DNA of 39,209 nt, taken from Bacteroidota bacterium (GTDB taxonomy: Bacteria; Bacteroidota; Bacteroidia; Bacteroidales; VadinHA17). Positions within the stretch are counted from its first letter, which is position 1, and every line of letters begins with the position of its first letter. The notes under the pieces were generated by a model. The model ran no database searches and had not been told where the DNA came from. It saw only the letters and a program-made list of their open reading frames with translations. The stretch is from positions 1-39,209 of the forward strand of contig JAUVKW010000006.1 of assembly GCA_030596025.1 (NCBI GenBank). Direction: 5' to 3'. Made by a program: the position numbers and the translations under genes. Positions 7,572-14,964 of the stretch are shown piece by piece.

Positions 7572-10500
7572 ATGAACCCTAAGCCTGCCACGTACCTTTT
7601 TGCTTTTTTTATTGCTTTTTTTGGATTTTTGGGAATTTCATATGCCCAGGATTTTCATTTGAAGAATTATAGTACGGAGGATGGTCTTAGCAACAGGTTT
7701 ATTTATACCATCAATCAGGATGAATCAGGATATTTGTGGATTGGAACCGGCTCCGGACTAAGCAGGTTTGATGGTTTTGAATTTCGTACAGATTTCCTGC
7801 CAGATTCCCTGTCAGAGAGTTTCTTTAATTGCAGCATGAAAGATAGCCTGGGATCTCTTTGGTTTGGAAGTAACAATGGCCTTGTTATTCAGTATGATGG
7901 GCAGAAGTTTACTAATTACAATCTCAATGAATATACCACAGGAGCAATAACTGGTTTGCTTGAGGGTCAGAATGGGAACATAATTGTTTCCACACAAAAT
8001 GGAGGCCTCATCAAGATAGATCCAATTAATCCTCATAATATAATTTATCATAAGCTTGAAGTTGGATTAATTTTTTCTATAGGGAAAGATCCAAACGGCA
8101 GACTATTGGTGGGCACGAATGATGGACTGATGCTATATTCCTTCCCGAAAGGAAATCAAAAACCTCAATTAATTTCTAAGCTTGATCAAATTCCTTCCAC
8201 AAGAATCAATGTTTTATATAGTGGGCCTTTTTCAGGAAACCTGTTTGTGGGGACTGAGGATAAGGGCCTTTATTTATTAAAACCCGGAACTCAAACCGAC
8301 CATTTTATTGTATTCAATCTAAGCCGGGATATTGATGTAAAACGACCAAATATTCGTTCCATTATTGAAACTAAACGAGGAGAATTATGGGTAAGTACAT
8401 TTAGATCTGGAGTAGTAAAATTATACCTGGGAGATAACCAGGAAAATGTTCTGGACTATCAATTATTTAATGCTAAGAATGGGTTAGTAAGCAATACTAC
8501 TCAGGTTATATTTCAGGATTTTGAAAAAAATATTTGGATTGGTACTGCTGGTAATGGAATGTCAATTCTTATGGATGAGGCCTTTACTTTCCTGAATATG
8601 GATAAAGATACGCCCGGAAATAGTGTAAGCTCAATTGTATCTGATGAGTCAAACTACTATTTTGCCGGGGATAAAGGAATTGCTGTTTTCGATAGTAAAA
8701 GCATGCAAATTGTTAAATCTTTCGGAAAAAACAATGGTTTGCCTGCTGATCAAATAACCTCGCTTGCATTGTTTGGTAAGAATCTTTGGGTTGGTACAAG
8801 AAAAAGTGGTTTATATCTTCTATCATTAATAACAGGAAGAGCCAATCCTTTTTTTGTATCAAATGATGACAATGAAAAGTCCATAAATCATATTGTTCAG
8901 GAAGGTAAAAAACTATGGCTTGCAACAAATAATGGTATTTTCTTGTTTGATCTTGACTCGGGCAACCGCAAACACTTCTCTACAACCGATGGACTTCCAC
9001 ACAATAACATCAGTCATCTTTACATGGATCAGGATAAAAAACTCTGGATTTCTACCCTGAGTGATGTTCTTTATTACCTTTCAGGAACCAGTGTGGTTAA
9101 ATCTAATTTTCCTTCCGCAGGAATCAGGATAGATTTCCGGCAAATTGCAATAAGCAATAGGGGTGATGTGTGGGCAGCTACCTATGGGAATGGAGTTTTA
9201 CACTTTGCATCCGATACTGTTTATAATGTGACAATGGAGACAGGATTGATGTCTAATTATTGTTATAGCATTTTTACAGATAACCAAAACAGGATATGGG
9301 TAGGGCACAGGCAGGGCTATAGCAGGATTTCTGAAGAAGATAAAATAATTAATACATATGGACAGGAACGGGGAATACTGGGAGATGCAAATCCTAATTC
9401 AGGGATGATTGAAAAGGATGCCAGGGTATTACTTGGTACAACCCAGGGAGTGATGATTTATGACTACAGGATGGATAAAGAAACAGGTCAGCCCCCTAAA
9501 GTAAGTGTCAATTCCATACAATTTAATGAAGAGGAAATTCCTTTTTCCAAAAAAATTGTAATGCCTTATGCAAGCTACGAACTGAAAATTGATTTTGTGG
9601 GAATTAGTTATAGTAATCCGGAGAAGGTAGTATATCAATATAAACTTGAAAATTATGATAATGACTGGTCTCCTTATACCACTGCATCTGAAATCACTTA
9701 TAACAGGCTTGATGATGGAGAATACAAGTTTTTATTGTACGCTTTTAATGCTGATTTTGAAACTTCAGCAGAAGCCTTTAGTTTCGAGATATTAGTTCGA
9801 AAACCAATATGGAAAACATGGTGGTTTTATGTCTTTATTTCAATTCTTCTCGTTTCATTAGTTGTTACTATTATTGTATTGAGAGAAAGAAAGCAGAAAA
9901 AGTTTCAGGCTTTCTTAGAAAATAAACTGGATGAGCGAACAAGGGAAGTTGTTGAGCAAAAAGATGAGATTGAACTTAAGAACAAAGAAATTACCGATAG
10001 CATCAATTATGCCCAAAGAATTCAGGCGAGTATTCTTCCACCTGTACAAAAACTTAAAGATAGTTTCCCGGGATCATTTGTTTTTTATAGACCCAGAGAC
10101 ATTGTTAGCGGGGATTTCTACTGGTGGGATAAGCTTGATGATGAGCGGTTTGTAATTGTTTGTGCCGATTCCACAGGTCATGGTGTTCCGGGAGCTTTTA
10201 TGTCTATGATAGGTTCAACTTTGATTAAAGATATTGTAGCACGAAATCTTAATATCAAACCTTCCAGTCTTTTAAGTATTCTTGACCAGGAAATTACGAC
10301 TTCCCTGAATCAAAATATTGAGGTTCATACTTCAAATGATGGTATGGACATGATTGTTTGTGAGTTTAATACAAGAACAAATCATCTGAGATTTTCTTCT
10401 GCCATGCGTCCAATTATACTGTTCCATAAGGGAGAGCAGTATTATATCCGGGGTAACAGAAGTTCCATAGGTGGAGATACCTTAACAGGAAAGGTGTTTG

Positions 10501-10742
10501 AAGACCAGGAATATCAACTGGATAAGGGAGATGTAGTATACTTGTTTTCTGATGGCTACCCTGATCAATTTGGTGGACCAATAGGTAAAAAACTAAAAAT
10601 GGTCAGGTTAAAAAATCTACTCGAGGATATCCATGATAAAAATATGGATGATCAATACAAGCATGTTAAGCAGAACTTTGAAATCTGGAAAGGAGACCTT
10701 GACCAGGTAGATGATGTTCTGTTTATGGGGATCCAGGTTTAA
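7572..10742 (+). CDS. Two-component-type propeller sensor with SpoIIE (PP2C) phosphatase output
   Basis: 1056 aa. A signal peptide or anchor (residues 1-25) precedes a long periplasmic part with repeated Reg_prop blades (for example ESGYLWIGTGSGLSRFDG and RGELWVSTFRSGVVKLY), giving two seven-bladed propellers by analogy with hybrid sensors. A Y_Y_Y domain follows near 670-745 (VYQYKLENYDNDW). One transmembrane helix lies near 750-770, then a charged coiled coil (residues 775-820) ending in DSINYAQRIQASILPP. The SpoIIE phosphatase occupies about 825-1056. Its metal-binding acidic residues are intact: SGDFYWW (~843), ADSTGHG (~865), SDGYPDQ (~993) and VDDVLF (~1047). The protein probably senses an outside signal and dephosphorylates a cytoplasmic partner, such as an anti-anti-sigma-like protein. 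No kinase or STAS partner is encoded nearby, except the cut histidine kinase upstream. It ends the + strand gene run. Confidence 0.92.
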   Translation: MNPKPATYLFAFFIAFFGFLGISYAQDFHLKNYSTEDGLSNRFIYTINQDESGYLWIGTGSGLSRFDGFEFRTDFLPDSLSESFFNCSMKDSLGSLWFGSNNGLVIQYDGQKFTNYNLNEYTTGAITGLLEGQNGNIIVSTQNGGLIKIDPINPHNIIYHKLEVGLIFSIGKDPNGRLLVGTNDGLMLYSFPKGNQKPQLISKLDQIPSTRINVLYSGPFSGNLFVGTEDKGLYLLKPGTQTDHFIVFNLSRDIDVKRPNIRSIIETKRGELWVSTFRSGVVKLYLGDNQENVLDYQLFNAKNGLVSNTTQVIFQDFEKNIWIGTAGNGMSILMDEAFTFLNMDKDTPGNSVSSIVSDESNYYFAGDKGIAVFDSKSMQIVKSFGKNNGLPADQITSLALFGKNLWVGTRKSGLYLLSLITGRANPFFVSNDDNEKSINHIVQEGKKLWLATNNGIFLFDLDSGNRKHFSTTDGLPHNNISHLYMDQDKKLWISTLSDVLYYLSGTSVVKSNFPSAGIRIDFRQIAISNRGDVWAATYGNGVLHFASDTVYNVTMETGLMSNYCYSIFTDNQNRIWVGHRQGYSRISEEDKIINTYGQERGILGDANPNSGMIEKDARVLLGTTQGVMIYDYRMDKETGQPPKVSVNSIQFNEEEIPFSKKIVMPYASYELKIDFVGISYSNPEKVVYQYKLENYDNDWSPYTTASEITYNRLDDGEYKFLLYAFNADFETSAEAFSFEILVRKPIWKTWWFYVFISILLVSLVVTIIVLRERKQKKFQAFLENKLDERTREVVEQKDEIELKNKEITDSINYAQRIQASILPPVQKLKDSFPGSFVFYRPRDIVSGDFYWWDKLDDERFVIVCADSTGHGVPGAFMSMIGSTLIKDIVARNLNIKPSSLLSILDQEITTSLNQNIEVHTSNDGMDMIVCEFNTRTNHLRFSSAMRPIILFHKGEQYYIRGNRSSIGGDTLTGKVFEDQEYQLDKGDVVYLFSDGYPDQFGGPIGKKLKMVRLKNLLEDIHDKNMDDQYKHVKQNFEIWKGDLDQVDDVLFMGIQV

Positions 10743-11277: not shown

Positions 11278-11297
11278 CACCAGGCTTCAGCCTGGTG
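11278..11297. repeat. Perfect 8-bp hairpin of the CCAGGC type
   Basis: CACCAGGC and GCCTGGTG pair around the loop TTCA. The core CCAGGCTTC also occurs at the large palindrome at 26697-26743, which suggests a shared REP-like family scattered through spacers. Confidence 0.6.
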
Positions 11298-11462: not shown

Positions 11463-12065
11463 CTATTCCGATACTTCCTCAAGATTTATTATCCCGTTAA
11501 GAATAGAATAGACCGTTAAACCAGACACAGTTTTAATACCCAGCTTCTGAGTTATATTCTTTCTGTGAGTTGTTACAGTATGTATACTTATGAAAAGCTT
11601 CTCTCCAATTTCTTTATTGGTTGAGCCCATTGCCACATGGCGAAGAATATTCTTTTCACGCTCACTTAATTTTGAAGATTTTGAATTGGTTTTACCAGCA
11701 GGCTTCCTGCTCTCAATAATTTTATTCAGCTTCTTCAGAAGTTCAGTTTTAGATTGGTATAAGTTTAAGGAATCATAAAAAATACTCTCTGCTTTTTTTG
11801 AGTCTCCAGTACTTCTTAAAAATAATACAGCGGTTTTGTTTTTGTCATGAAAATATTTTTCAAGATCATTTTCTAATTGAGGCTCTAGCATTTCTTCTGA
11901 AATAATTACAAAATCAGGTTCTTCATGTAGAATATTTTCTAATAATTTGAAGGAAGAATCAGACTTGCCCACTATTTCAACCATTGCAACCTCCCTTAAC
12001 AAACTCTCAAGACCTTTTGTAACAAGGTGCGATTTTGAGGCAATATAGAATCCTATCTTACTCAT
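11463..12065 (-). CDS. LuxR-family DNA-binding regulator with degenerate receiver domain
   Basis: 200 aa with the two-part layout of NarL/FixJ response regulators. Residues 1-125 fold like a receiver by pattern, but key residues are missing: the acidic pair expected near residue 8 is replaced (GFYIASKSHL), and the phosphoacceptor Asp is replaced by Ser56 in PDFVIISEEML. Lys107 in YQSKTELL may be the conserved lysine. Residues about 133-195 are a clear LuxR helix-turn-helix: LSEREKNILRHVAMGSTNKE, then IHTVTTHRKNITQKLGI. It probably acts as a DNA-binding transcription factor not controlled by phosphorylation. It lies 119 bases downstream of the hemerythrin/RIC-like gene on the same strand; that neighbour suggests a redox, oxygen or NO-linked input, which is inference. 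Starts at ATG. Confidence 0.87.
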   Translation of the reverse strand: MSKIGFYIASKSHLVTKGLESLLREVAMVEIVGKSDSSFKLLENILHEEPDFVIISEEMLEPQLENDLEKYFHDKNKTAVLFLRSTGDSKKAESIFYDSLNLYQSKTELLKKLNKIIESRKPAGKTNSKSSKLSEREKNILRHVAMGSTNKEIGEKLFISIHTVTTHRKNITQKLGIKTVSGLTVYSILNGIINLEEVSE

Positions 12066-12184
12066 TATTACAACTGTATGTGTTAGGTGTGCAGTAGTTC
12101 AACGGTATTTTTTTTATTGAGCACCATGGCATGTTGTTATTCTCATTAATTATTTGATTCGTCCGGTTGAATGTAGTATAGATG

Positions 12185-12889
12185 CTATTTTCCGGTTTTT
12201 ATTTTTTTCTCCATAAGTAACACCTTTGGAATCAAGACTTTTTCTTCAATTCTGCTGTGATCATTCAGATCTTTTTCCAGGTTGAACAATTCTGTAAGAA
12301 CTTTTGAGCAAAGAGATGGATTACCGGTGGGAGCCAGATATTTGATAATAATATTTTTTAAATCATAAAGCTTTGATTCAATATCATCATGTTCTGAGGA
12401 ATATTCCTGAATGGAATAGCCTTCAGAGGCTGTGCTTTCAATCAGGCTATTATCTTTACCCAGAAATGCCAACTCAGTTGAGATAGAATACGGAAAGACC
12501 TTTTCATCTTCTCTTTTTGTATGGGCAATAAGCTCATTTTTATACTCCCTGAAAAATGATTCCAACAAAACAGCATACTTGTTGTTTGCATAACACTCTA
12601 CCACCATCAGATTAATTAGCTTTTCCAGTTCTGGAATTTTCACATCCAAATAATACCTGTGTGTTTTACTCAGGTAATCTGTGATTAAGCTTACAGAAAA
12701 ATTTTGTAGATTTTCTTCCGGGAAATAATCTTCATCATGAAAGGAATTCACAATTTCTAAAAAGAAGTCCAGTTTAACATTGTGTTCCTGACAAACCTCC
12801 TGAACACTTTTATCTCCAAATCCCAGGTTAATACCAAATCTGTTTATCACAGATATCAGAAGATAATTCAAATGAATCAGGTCAGCCAT
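12185..12889 (-). CDS. Hemerythrin/RIC-like di-iron protein with cysteine-less ScdA N-terminal domain
   Basis: 234 aa from the ATG at 12889. A further ATG at 12910 exists, but a -7 box at 12915-12922 places transcription start at about that point, so 12889 is preferred. The N-terminal part (about 17-50: NRFGINLGFGDKSVQEVCQE) aligns by eye with the ScdA/YtfE N-terminal domain, but the usual DFCCGG is replaced by NLGFGD. The rest is a hemerythrin-type four-helix bundle with candidate iron ligands H77 (SKTHRYY), H123/E127 (HTKREDEKVFP), H167 (SSEHDD) and H211/E215 (HSRIEEKVLIP). RIC proteins are known to repair Fe-S clusters after nitrosative or oxidative damage; whether this variant does so is unclear without the cysteines. 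It precedes the LuxR gene on the same strand and could act as its sensor. Confidence 0.82.
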   Translation of the reverse strand: MADLIHLNYLLISVINRFGINLGFGDKSVQEVCQEHNVKLDFFLEIVNSFHDEDYFPEENLQNFSVSLITDYLSKTHRYYLDVKIPELEKLINLMVVECYANNKYAVLLESFFREYKNELIAHTKREDEKVFPYSISTELAFLGKDNSLIESTASEGYSIQEYSSEHDDIESKLYDLKNIIIKYLAPTGNPSLCSKVLTELFNLEKDLNDHSRIEEKVLIPKVLLMEKKIKTGK

Positions 12890-12914
12890 TTTATTTTTGC
12901 CGGTAATCATATTA

Positions 12915-13097: not shown

Positions 13098-13631
13098 CTA
13101 TTTGCTAAGGTCGGGAAGTATAAATGCAGGAGTTGACTCAGTATTGCTTTCATGCCCGGCCCTGTCAGTGATATAGAAGTCGTAACTAATTGTGTCATAA
13201 TCAAAAAGAAGATATGTAAATTCCACTTCAACTTCACCTGTTATACTTTGATCCATTCTCTGGGGCTCAAGGTATGGTATCCTGTAATTAAGGGGAAATT
13301 CAAGTTCATCATCACCAATTTCAACCGGTATCCCGTTCTGTATATCAAACATAGTAAAAAACAGGTTAGAATATTCTGGATCGGTGGGATCAACAGTATC
13401 GGGGGGCTGTCCCAGTCCAATATCCCCATCTCCATCTACAAATGAAAAAACCAATTTACCTACCAGGCCTTCATTTCCTAACTCATCAATTGTATCTCTG
13501 ATAAAAAAACTCAGGTATTCAATTTCAGGTATTTCTGGATATGTTTCAACTTTTCGACAGGAAGAGAGTATGAGGCTTAAAATTGCACTCCACACAATCA
13601 GATATGTTATTTTTTGTATCATAAAATTCAA
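13098..13631 (-). CDS. Putative lipoprotein, function unknown
   Basis: 177 aa with a lipoprotein signal peptide: a hydrophobic stretch followed by the lipobox LILSSC, with Cys25 as the lipid site. Met4 is an alternative start. The mature part is acidic and carries VDGDGDIGLGQPPDT, a DGDGDIG segment that I associate with uncharacterised Bacteroidota lipoproteins, followed by beta-strand-like sequence to FILPDLSK. It should sit at the outer or inner membrane facing the periplasm. The gene is 28 bases downstream of der on the same strand, so it is probably read from the era/der transcript. No enzymatic motif is visible and I do not assign a function. Confidence 0.75.
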   Translation of the reverse strand: MNFMIQKITYLIVWSAILSLILSSCRKVETYPEIPEIEYLSFFIRDTIDELGNEGLVGKLVFSFVDGDGDIGLGQPPDTVDPTDPEYSNLFFTMFDIQNGIPVEIGDDELEFPLNYRIPYLEPQRMDQSITGEVEVEFTYLLFDYDTISYDFYITDRAGHESNTESTPAFILPDLSK

Positions 13632-13659
13632 TATAATGAAATCTCCTCAAAAATCATAC

Positions 13660-14964
13660 CTATTTTTTTCTGAAAAAGATTTGTATTGGAACACCTGAAA
13701 GCTTGAAATTTTCTCTTAATCTGTTCTCAAGATATCTTTTGTATGGATCTTTTATATGCTGAGGGTAATTACAAAACATGGCGAATGAAGGGGCTAATGT
13801 TGGAAGCTGAGTGGCATATTTAATTTTCACTTCCTGCCCTCTGTGTGATGGAGGATGATGAGCTGCAACTGCCTCAAGAACAATTCGGTTAAGTTTTGAG
13901 GTGGGTATCCTCTGAATTCGGTTTGTATAAACTTCAACCGCGGTATCCAATATTTTTTGCAATCTGATTTTACTTAATGCAGAAGTAAATACAATAGGGA
14001 TATCCTGGAAAGGAGCTATTTTATGCCTGATTTTTTCCTCAAATATTTTTGCAGTATTTGTATCTTTCTCAACCAGGTCCCATTTATTTACCAGGAGAAC
14101 AATGCCTTTTCTGTTTCTTTGAATCAGGTGTAATATATTTTGATCCTGGCCTTCAAACCCTAATTCTGCATCAATCAATAGCAAACATACATCCGAGTTT
14201 TCAATAGCTGTGATTGCCCGCATTACAGAATAAAACTCCAGGTTTTCATTCACTTTGCCCTTTTTTCTCAATCCAGCTGTATCCACCAGGTAAAAATCAT
14301 GCTTATATTTATTATAGCGTGTATAAACCGTATCCCGGGTTGTTCCTGAAATAGGTGTGACAATATTGCGTTCTTCGCCAAGGAGAGCATTTACCAGTGA
14401 GGATTTTCCAACATTCGGTCGTCCAACAATGGCAAACCTGGGCAATACTATTTCCTCTTCATGTATTTCATCGGGAAGAAATGTTACCAGTTCATCAAGC
14501 AGCTCTCCCGTACCACTGCCATTTATTGAGGAGATAGGATAAATGTCCCCGAGACCAAGTTTGTAAAATGTATTTGCCTCATACTGCCTATCATGCTGAT
14601 CTACCTTGTTTACCACCAGCATAACCTTTTTGTCTGTACGCCTCAGGATCTTTGCAAGTGCTTCATCAGGGCTGGTAATTCCTGTCTCCACATCAACAAG
14701 AAATAAAATAATCTCAGACTCCTCAATGGCTATAAGCACCTGCTTTTTAATTTCTTCTTCAAAAATATCTTCAGAACTACTCAGATAACCTCCCGTATCA
14801 ATAACATGAAACAGCTTACCATTCCATTCGCTTGTTCCGTAATGCCGGTCCCTGGTTACTCCACTTGTTTCGTGTACAATTGCCTTTCGGCTTTCTGTGA
14901 GACGGTTAAAAAGTGTGGATTTTCCAACATTTGGCCTTCCTACTATGGCTATGATATTTCTCAT
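13660..14964 (-). CDS. der: Ribosome biogenesis GTPase Der (EngA)
   Basis: 434 aa, the normal length for Der, with two tandem GTPase domains and a C-terminal KH-like domain. The first G domain has GRPNVGKST (9-17), DTGG (56-59) and NKVD (119-122). The second has GRPNVGKSS (181-189), DTAG (228-231) and NKWD (293-296). The last ~90 residues (HPPSHRGQEVKIKYATQLPT ... NRLRENFKLSGVPIQIFFRKK) are the KH-like domain. Known role: GTP-dependent assembly of the 50S ribosomal subunit. It begins at an ATG, 95 bases after the end of era, and is followed 28 bases later by the lipoprotein gene. All catalytic motifs look intact. Confidence 0.98.
   Translation of the reverse strand: MRNIIAIVGRPNVGKSTLFNRLTESRKAIVHETSGVTRDRHYGTSEWNGKLFHVIDTGGYLSSSEDIFEEEIKKQVLIAIEESEIILFLVDVETGITSPDEALAKILRRTDKKVMLVVNKVDQHDRQYEANTFYKLGLGDIYPISSINGSGTGELLDELVTFLPDEIHEEEIVLPRFAIVGRPNVGKSSLVNALLGEERNIVTPISGTTRDTVYTRYNKYKHDFYLVDTAGLRKKGKVNENLEFYSVMRAITAIENSDVCLLLIDAELGFEGQDQNILHLIQRNRKGIVLLVNKWDLVEKDTNTAKIFEEKIRHKIAPFQDIPIVFTSALSKIRLQKILDTAVEVYTNRIQRIPTSKLNRIVLEAVAAHHPPSHRGQEVKIKYATQLPTLAPSFAMFCNYPQHIKDPYKRYLENRLRENFKLSGVPIQIFFRKK

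Follow-up and report, generated by a model that had tools for sequence, protein, structure and literature searches.

The gene pair described here is very probably already in the literature as the iron-regulated hemerythrin/CdhR operon. PG1236-PG1237 (CdhR) of P. gingivalis and BT0519-BT0520 of B. thetaiotaomicron each consist of a hemerythrin gene followed by a response-regulator-type gene, and Prevotella intermedia PIN17_RS10465 is a naturally fused version of the operon (PMC10434189). Low iron induces the operon 7-fold in P. gingivalis and 16-20-fold in B. thetaiotaomicron. CdhR activates the haem uptake genes hmuYR. The authors themselves call the mechanism unclear, and the same paper states that CdhR has not yet been shown to bind iron (PMC10434189).

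Hemerythrin-like domains proposed or shown to pass iron status to a regulatory output also occur in eukaryotic ubiquitin ligases. In animals, FBXL5 carries a hemerythrin-like di-iron domain within such a ligase and reports iron status. In plants, the ubiquitin ligase BRUTUS is a hemerythrin-type iron sensor (PMC12022348). The locus described here differs from both in that its output would be a bacterial DNA-binding protein and its domain is of the RIC type. The RICs (YtfE/ScdA; TIGR03652) provide the structural reference: in YtfE the di-iron ligands are H84 and H204, and H129 and H160, with E133 and E208 as bridges (PMC9268430, PMC9052748). The NarL/LuxR-type regulators LiaR, VraR, NarL and ChrA, for their part, combine a receiver-like domain with a LuxR-type helix-turn-helix (HTH) and take a histidine kinase as partner. 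The pair analysed below consists of one relative of each of these bacterial families, and we think it probable that together they constitute a two-protein, phosphorylation-independent, iron-responsive transcription switch that works by direct contact.

The window is the whole 39,209-nucleotide stretch that was analysed, from a bacterium that belongs to another family of the order than the hosts of the CdhR operon. Its gene pair comprises the following features:

12185-12910, minus strand: di-iron (hemerythrin-type, RIC-derived) protein, the proposed sensor; 241 amino acids, ATG start
11463-12065, minus strand: LuxR/NarL-type regulator with an aspartate-less pseudo-receiver; 200 amino acids, ATG start
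12066-12184, minus strand: intergenic gap of 119 nt, the longest among 159 adjacent pairs
11278-11297, minus strand: terminator-like stem-loop 3′ of the regulator; 8 pairs, 6 of them GC, then a T run

The first-pass annotation had placed two altered proteins side by side on one strand, and both open reading frames are confirmed there, the di-iron gene being transcribed first and the regulator second. The strong, terminator-like hairpin lies ∼165 nt past the regulator gene and suggests that the transcript may end there in this organism; terminator-like hairpins, scored by consensus match only, numbered 2 versus 1.3 expected in shuffles.

Linkage of the two genes was followed at several phylogenetic depths. 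A first search of named genomes brought up 18 proteins related to the di-iron protein, each of which adjoined or was fused to the regulator on the same strand; RIC profile matches were also found in the genome of Bacteroides ihuae, a named control. In a phylum sample of 395 genomes, the relatives fell into two groups: window-like proteins, all with the regulator where the locus was fetched, and canonical RICs, none with it. With ∼120 further loci fetched, the di-iron family comprised 174 non-redundant members including that of the window. These loci were picked by match strength, which biases the sample of the family to window-like members; family scores are cleanly bimodal (≥220 versus ≤139). 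In 159 of the 174 the next gene downstream, on the same strand, is the regulator, and in 10 the two are fused, so that 169 of 174 share with the CdhR operon a hemerythrin gene placed directly before, or joined to, its regulator. Four members lack a regulator nearby, each in a genome that carries a family regulator elsewhere (G410, G562, G430 and G740), and one is cut by the contig end. Canonical or intermediate RICs, in contrast, had no regulator beside them at any of 16 loci.

The same association holds for whole genomes. Among 393 genomes of the order, the di-iron family is present in 257 and the regulator family in 251; both occur in 248, neither in 133 and just one in 12 (nine di-iron only, three regulator only). 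This pairing is far beyond chance, the Fisher test being one that ignores relatedness. Across the 159 adjacent pairs the intergenic gap has a median of −1 nt, is ≤20 nt in 149 and vanishes into overlapping or abutting genes in 85, gap sizes from which the pair appears to be translationally coupled. Paired mutual information over 157 pairs (effective number 135) was only slightly above that of near-neighbour swaps, and its top pairs look phylogenetic. The earlier proposal had staked itself on adjacency being frequent, and the 169 loci bear it out: the two altered proteins are supported as a tight functional unit, by a linkage stronger than the first-pass annotation could show. The window family is probably the CdhR operon family, an orthology that rests on architecture, fusion and neighbourhood.

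The di-iron protein matches Pfam Hemerythrin (E 1.2e-7) and the NCBIfam RIC model TIGR03652 (E 5e-21), the latter at 75.4 bits and so short of the 204.7-bit cut-off. Its AlphaFold2 model, built from 104 sequences, reaches a pLDDT of 94.2 and a pTM of 0.90, and its best matches in the PDB are the S. aureus RIC ScdA and E. coli YtfE (Z 15-16 over ∼150 residues). The positions that matter for the metal site are these:

12659-12661, minus strand: His84, equivalent to YtfE H84 (Fe1 ligand, PMC9268430); kept in 173/174
12509-12523, minus strand: His130 and Glu134, equivalent to the YtfE metal ligands H129 and E133; 173/174 each
12377-12391, minus strand: His174, equivalent to the YtfE ligand H160, and Glu178, a carboxylate gained in the family (family alignment)
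12245-12259, minus strand: His218 and Glu222, equivalent to the YtfE metal ligands H204 and E208; 174/174 and 173/174
12818-12823, minus strand: codons 30-31, Gly-Phe, in place of the adjacent Cys-Cys of RICs (alignment to canonical RICs)

The window protein thus shares with RICs the fold and all six first-shell ligands (H84, H130, E134, H174, H218 and E222), a set that is complete in 173 of the 174 family members. In the 104-sequence alignment, no column is invariant apart from these six and E234. It departs from RICs in its score, far under the cut-off, in an extra carboxylate at position 178 (Glu or Asp in 158/174), and in the loss of the cysteine pair and of His105. The Cys-Cys pair is present in 14 of 16 RIC or intermediate rows, against any cysteine at the pair in 1 of 174 family members, and no His105 was seen in the alignment of those 174. 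The first-pass annotation had called the protein cysteine-less, which is correct for the adjacent pair (now G30-F31) and wrong for the chain as a whole, where C40, C106 and C201 remain. The missing His105 was considered as a lost di-iron ligand. This was ruled out because YtfE crystal structures assign the metal to six other residues, all of which are kept here (PMC9268430, PMC9052748).

Window-like di-iron proteins form a distinct RIC-derived family; when canonical RICs are used to root the tree, the paired family is one group (support 0.69). Ligands kept beside a lost Cys pair and His105 make up the pattern of a strongly selected metal site in a protein that has departed from RIC function, and the protein presumably binds metal. 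Two proteins of genome G190 (loci L035 and L194) are intermediate between RICs and the family: they have no Cys pair, a Tyr at the His105 position and a Glu at 178, stand without a regulator partner, and occupy the branch adjoining the family. They may reveal the order of changes from RIC to family. One observation counts against the proposed switch. The third of three copies in genome G347 (L025:1486-2193, contig 59) has lost nearly all metal ligands and kept its regulator partner; it is possibly dead or a metal-free modulator.

The regulator, in turn, has moved away from the response regulators that it resembles:

11706-12065, minus strand: pseudo-receiver, residues 1-120 (AlphaFold2 model)
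11466-11675, minus strand: LuxR-type helix-turn-helix, residues 131-200 (PF00196 match)
11898-11900, minus strand: Ser56 at the phospho-acceptor Asp position (family alignment)

In a Pfam search, the sole match of the window protein was the LuxR-type HTH PF00196 (E 4.4e-17, 61.9 bits versus a cut-off of 23.5), and no receiver model was matched. The AlphaFold2 model (106 sequences, pLDDT 91) nonetheless predicts a receiver-like beta-alpha fold followed by the LuxR HTH, and the closest PDB structures are LiaR/VraR (E 4e-11), with ChrA and RcsB also among them. What sets the protein apart from LiaR, VraR, NarL and ChrA is the absence of the phospho-acceptor Asp and acidic pocket, a di-iron protein as partner in place of a histidine kinase, and, in the window model, the absence of helix alpha4 between strands 4 and 5. 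The window protein has S56, S10 and K11 in place of the Asp and the acidic pair. Across the 106 family members, the phospho-acceptor column holds N in 55, S in 15, D in 13 and E in 7, and the second acidic position is most often Pro, Lys or Arg. A canonical NarL-type regulator directly upstream of one pair (L009:4195-4890) looks phosphorylatable and holds the full set (VDDHH, IVDIS, YLPK), which serves as an internal control; at that locus classical and pseudo-receiver regulators stand side by side.

Could the regulator still be phosphorylated, at another residue or by small phosphodonors, with the di-iron protein modulating it indirectly? The receiver fold is kept in the model and the 13 proteins with Asp at the acceptor column would allow it. 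Yet in none of the 106 do the phospho-Asp and both acidic-pocket residues occur together, the window model lacks helix alpha4, and the fusions described below manage without a receiver. We regard phosphorylation as highly improbable. The first-pass description of a regulator without a phosphoacceptor extends from Ser56 in the window to the family as a whole.

Ten natural fusions join the di-iron domain to the HTH through a linker of 11-46 residues, and because the linker is no longer than this the receiver is gone in all ten. On the RIC-rooted tree these fusions need about five parsimony changes. Most simply read, the pseudo-receiver would merely bring the sensor and the HTH together and become dispensable once the two are covalently joined. 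The receiver-less fusions are thus the strongest argument for direct signalling from the di-iron protein to the regulator, which the first-pass annotation had put forward as one explanation, and which we infer here from domain architecture. They also bear on whether the di-iron protein might still be an enzyme (an iron donor, a nitrite or NO reductase, or a peroxide remover) whose gene simply shares a transcript with that of its regulator, with no contact between the two proteins. Regulators often adjoin the enzyme gene under their control, and the active-site ligands are intact; what the fusions unite, however, is precisely the sensor with the DNA-binding domain, the receiver being left out. 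In addition, the gene order of the pair is nearly invariant while the surrounding genes change, the Cys pair and His105 of RICs are lost, and no canonical RIC examined has a regulator partner. An enzymatic role of this kind is in our judgement improbable.

Neighbouring genes were read in the 16-kb surroundings of 40 diverse loci and in 40 control regions from the same contigs. Beyond the pair itself, two genes came top at 6/40 loci apiece: FeoB and a Der-type GTPase, the latter a reflection of local synteny. Every one of these FeoB genes followed the pair directly on its strand, and at least three families were represented (6/40 versus 0/40 controls, Fisher p 0.026). A flavodoxin gene lay within ∼1 kb of the pair in 2/40 loci versus 0/40 controls, divergent from it in one. 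Flavodoxin, an iron-sparing stand-in for ferredoxin, is likewise found near the B. thetaiotaomicron operon as BT0517 (PMC10434189); here it adjoins pairs of family f2 (L028/L029), in which both fused and unfused forms occur. FeoB and flavodoxin adjacency is a minority pattern among the 40 loci.

Other features of the surroundings recur as well. Around the window pair (7572-10742, plus strand; 13098-14964, minus strand) lies a block with an upstream Der GTPase in 20 loci, a small lipoprotein in 19 and, downstream and convergent in 13, a propeller/Y_Y_Y/SpoIIE-phosphatase protein that puts a PP2C-type phosphatase beside the regulator; the block is probably synteny. An outer-membrane porin gene adjoins the pair in ∼10 loci (L204, L215, L232, L205 and others), several times divergently, and is a possible target of the regulator. 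No shared motif stood out among gapped inverted words in 173 upstream regions. One palindromic candidate operator, GTTT-N9-AAAC, occurred in 12 of them versus 1.2 expected; it is a weak AT-rich signal counted without multiple-test correction and was not used.

Taken with these neighbours, the iron-responsive switch would operate as follows. A RIC-derived protein that kept its di-iron ligands and lost its N-terminal Cys pair would now work as a sensor; what it reports is most likely its iron occupancy and, through that, the iron supply of the cell. It would signal through direct protein contact with the LuxR/NarL-type regulator encoded by the neighbouring gene, whose receiver, not phosphorylatable in the usual way, would serve as a docking adaptor; on gene fusion the adaptor would be dropped and the sensor coupled directly to the DNA-binding domain. 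The regulator would control genes of iron limitation, such as those for haem uptake, ferrous iron uptake and flavodoxin. For this organism we infer both the direction of the response and the target genes.

Low-iron induction of the operon does not prove iron sensing by its product. The first-pass annotation had suggested a gas or redox signal, and the same two-protein switch could have a di-iron centre that reads O2, NO or redox state and not iron supply. All the YtfE ligands remain, nitrosative stress induces RICs, which react with NO and with O2 (PMC9268430, PMC9052748), and cdhR and hmu fall jointly under microaerophilic conditions (PMC10101095). A bacterial hemerythrin domain has moreover been described, as cited in PMC10101095 (Schaller 2012), as regulating a diguanylate cyclase by redox state. 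Set against this, the genes that recur beside the pair serve iron uptake or iron sparing (FeoB, flavodoxin) and included none for NO or O2 defence, and iron depletion elicits a strong response from the probable orthologues (PMC10434189). A switch that reads gas or redox state is therefore unlikely, and iron availability is the better reading, although O2 or NO at the same di-iron site could add to the iron signal or replace it.

Relative to the papers searched, the new elements are that the pairing is near-obligate across the order, that the di-iron protein descends from RICs with its ligands retained, that the phospho-site is lost family-wide, and that the fusions lack a receiver; PMC10434189 treats the CdhR operon without RIC ancestry, ligand set, dead phospho-site or receiver-less fusions. 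Iron control is poorly understood in Bacteroidota, a phylum that counts major commensals of the gut and an oral pathogen among its members, and CdhR has been published as a haem-uptake regulator with neither signal nor sensor assigned. The pair's anatomy offers CdhR a candidate sensor, names six residues, would account for regulation in which no partner kinase takes part and makes iron sensing by CdhR testable, with the receiver-less fusions used to predict how the signal travels. On a wider scale, we tentatively suggest a widespread class of ‘split one-component’ regulators, in which a repair enzyme turned iron sensor contacts a regulator with an aspartate-less receiver, and in which that receiver is a pure adaptor that several lineages dropped by fusion. 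If true, this class would provide CdhR with its missing sensor and Bacteroidota with a way of sensing iron in addition to Fur.
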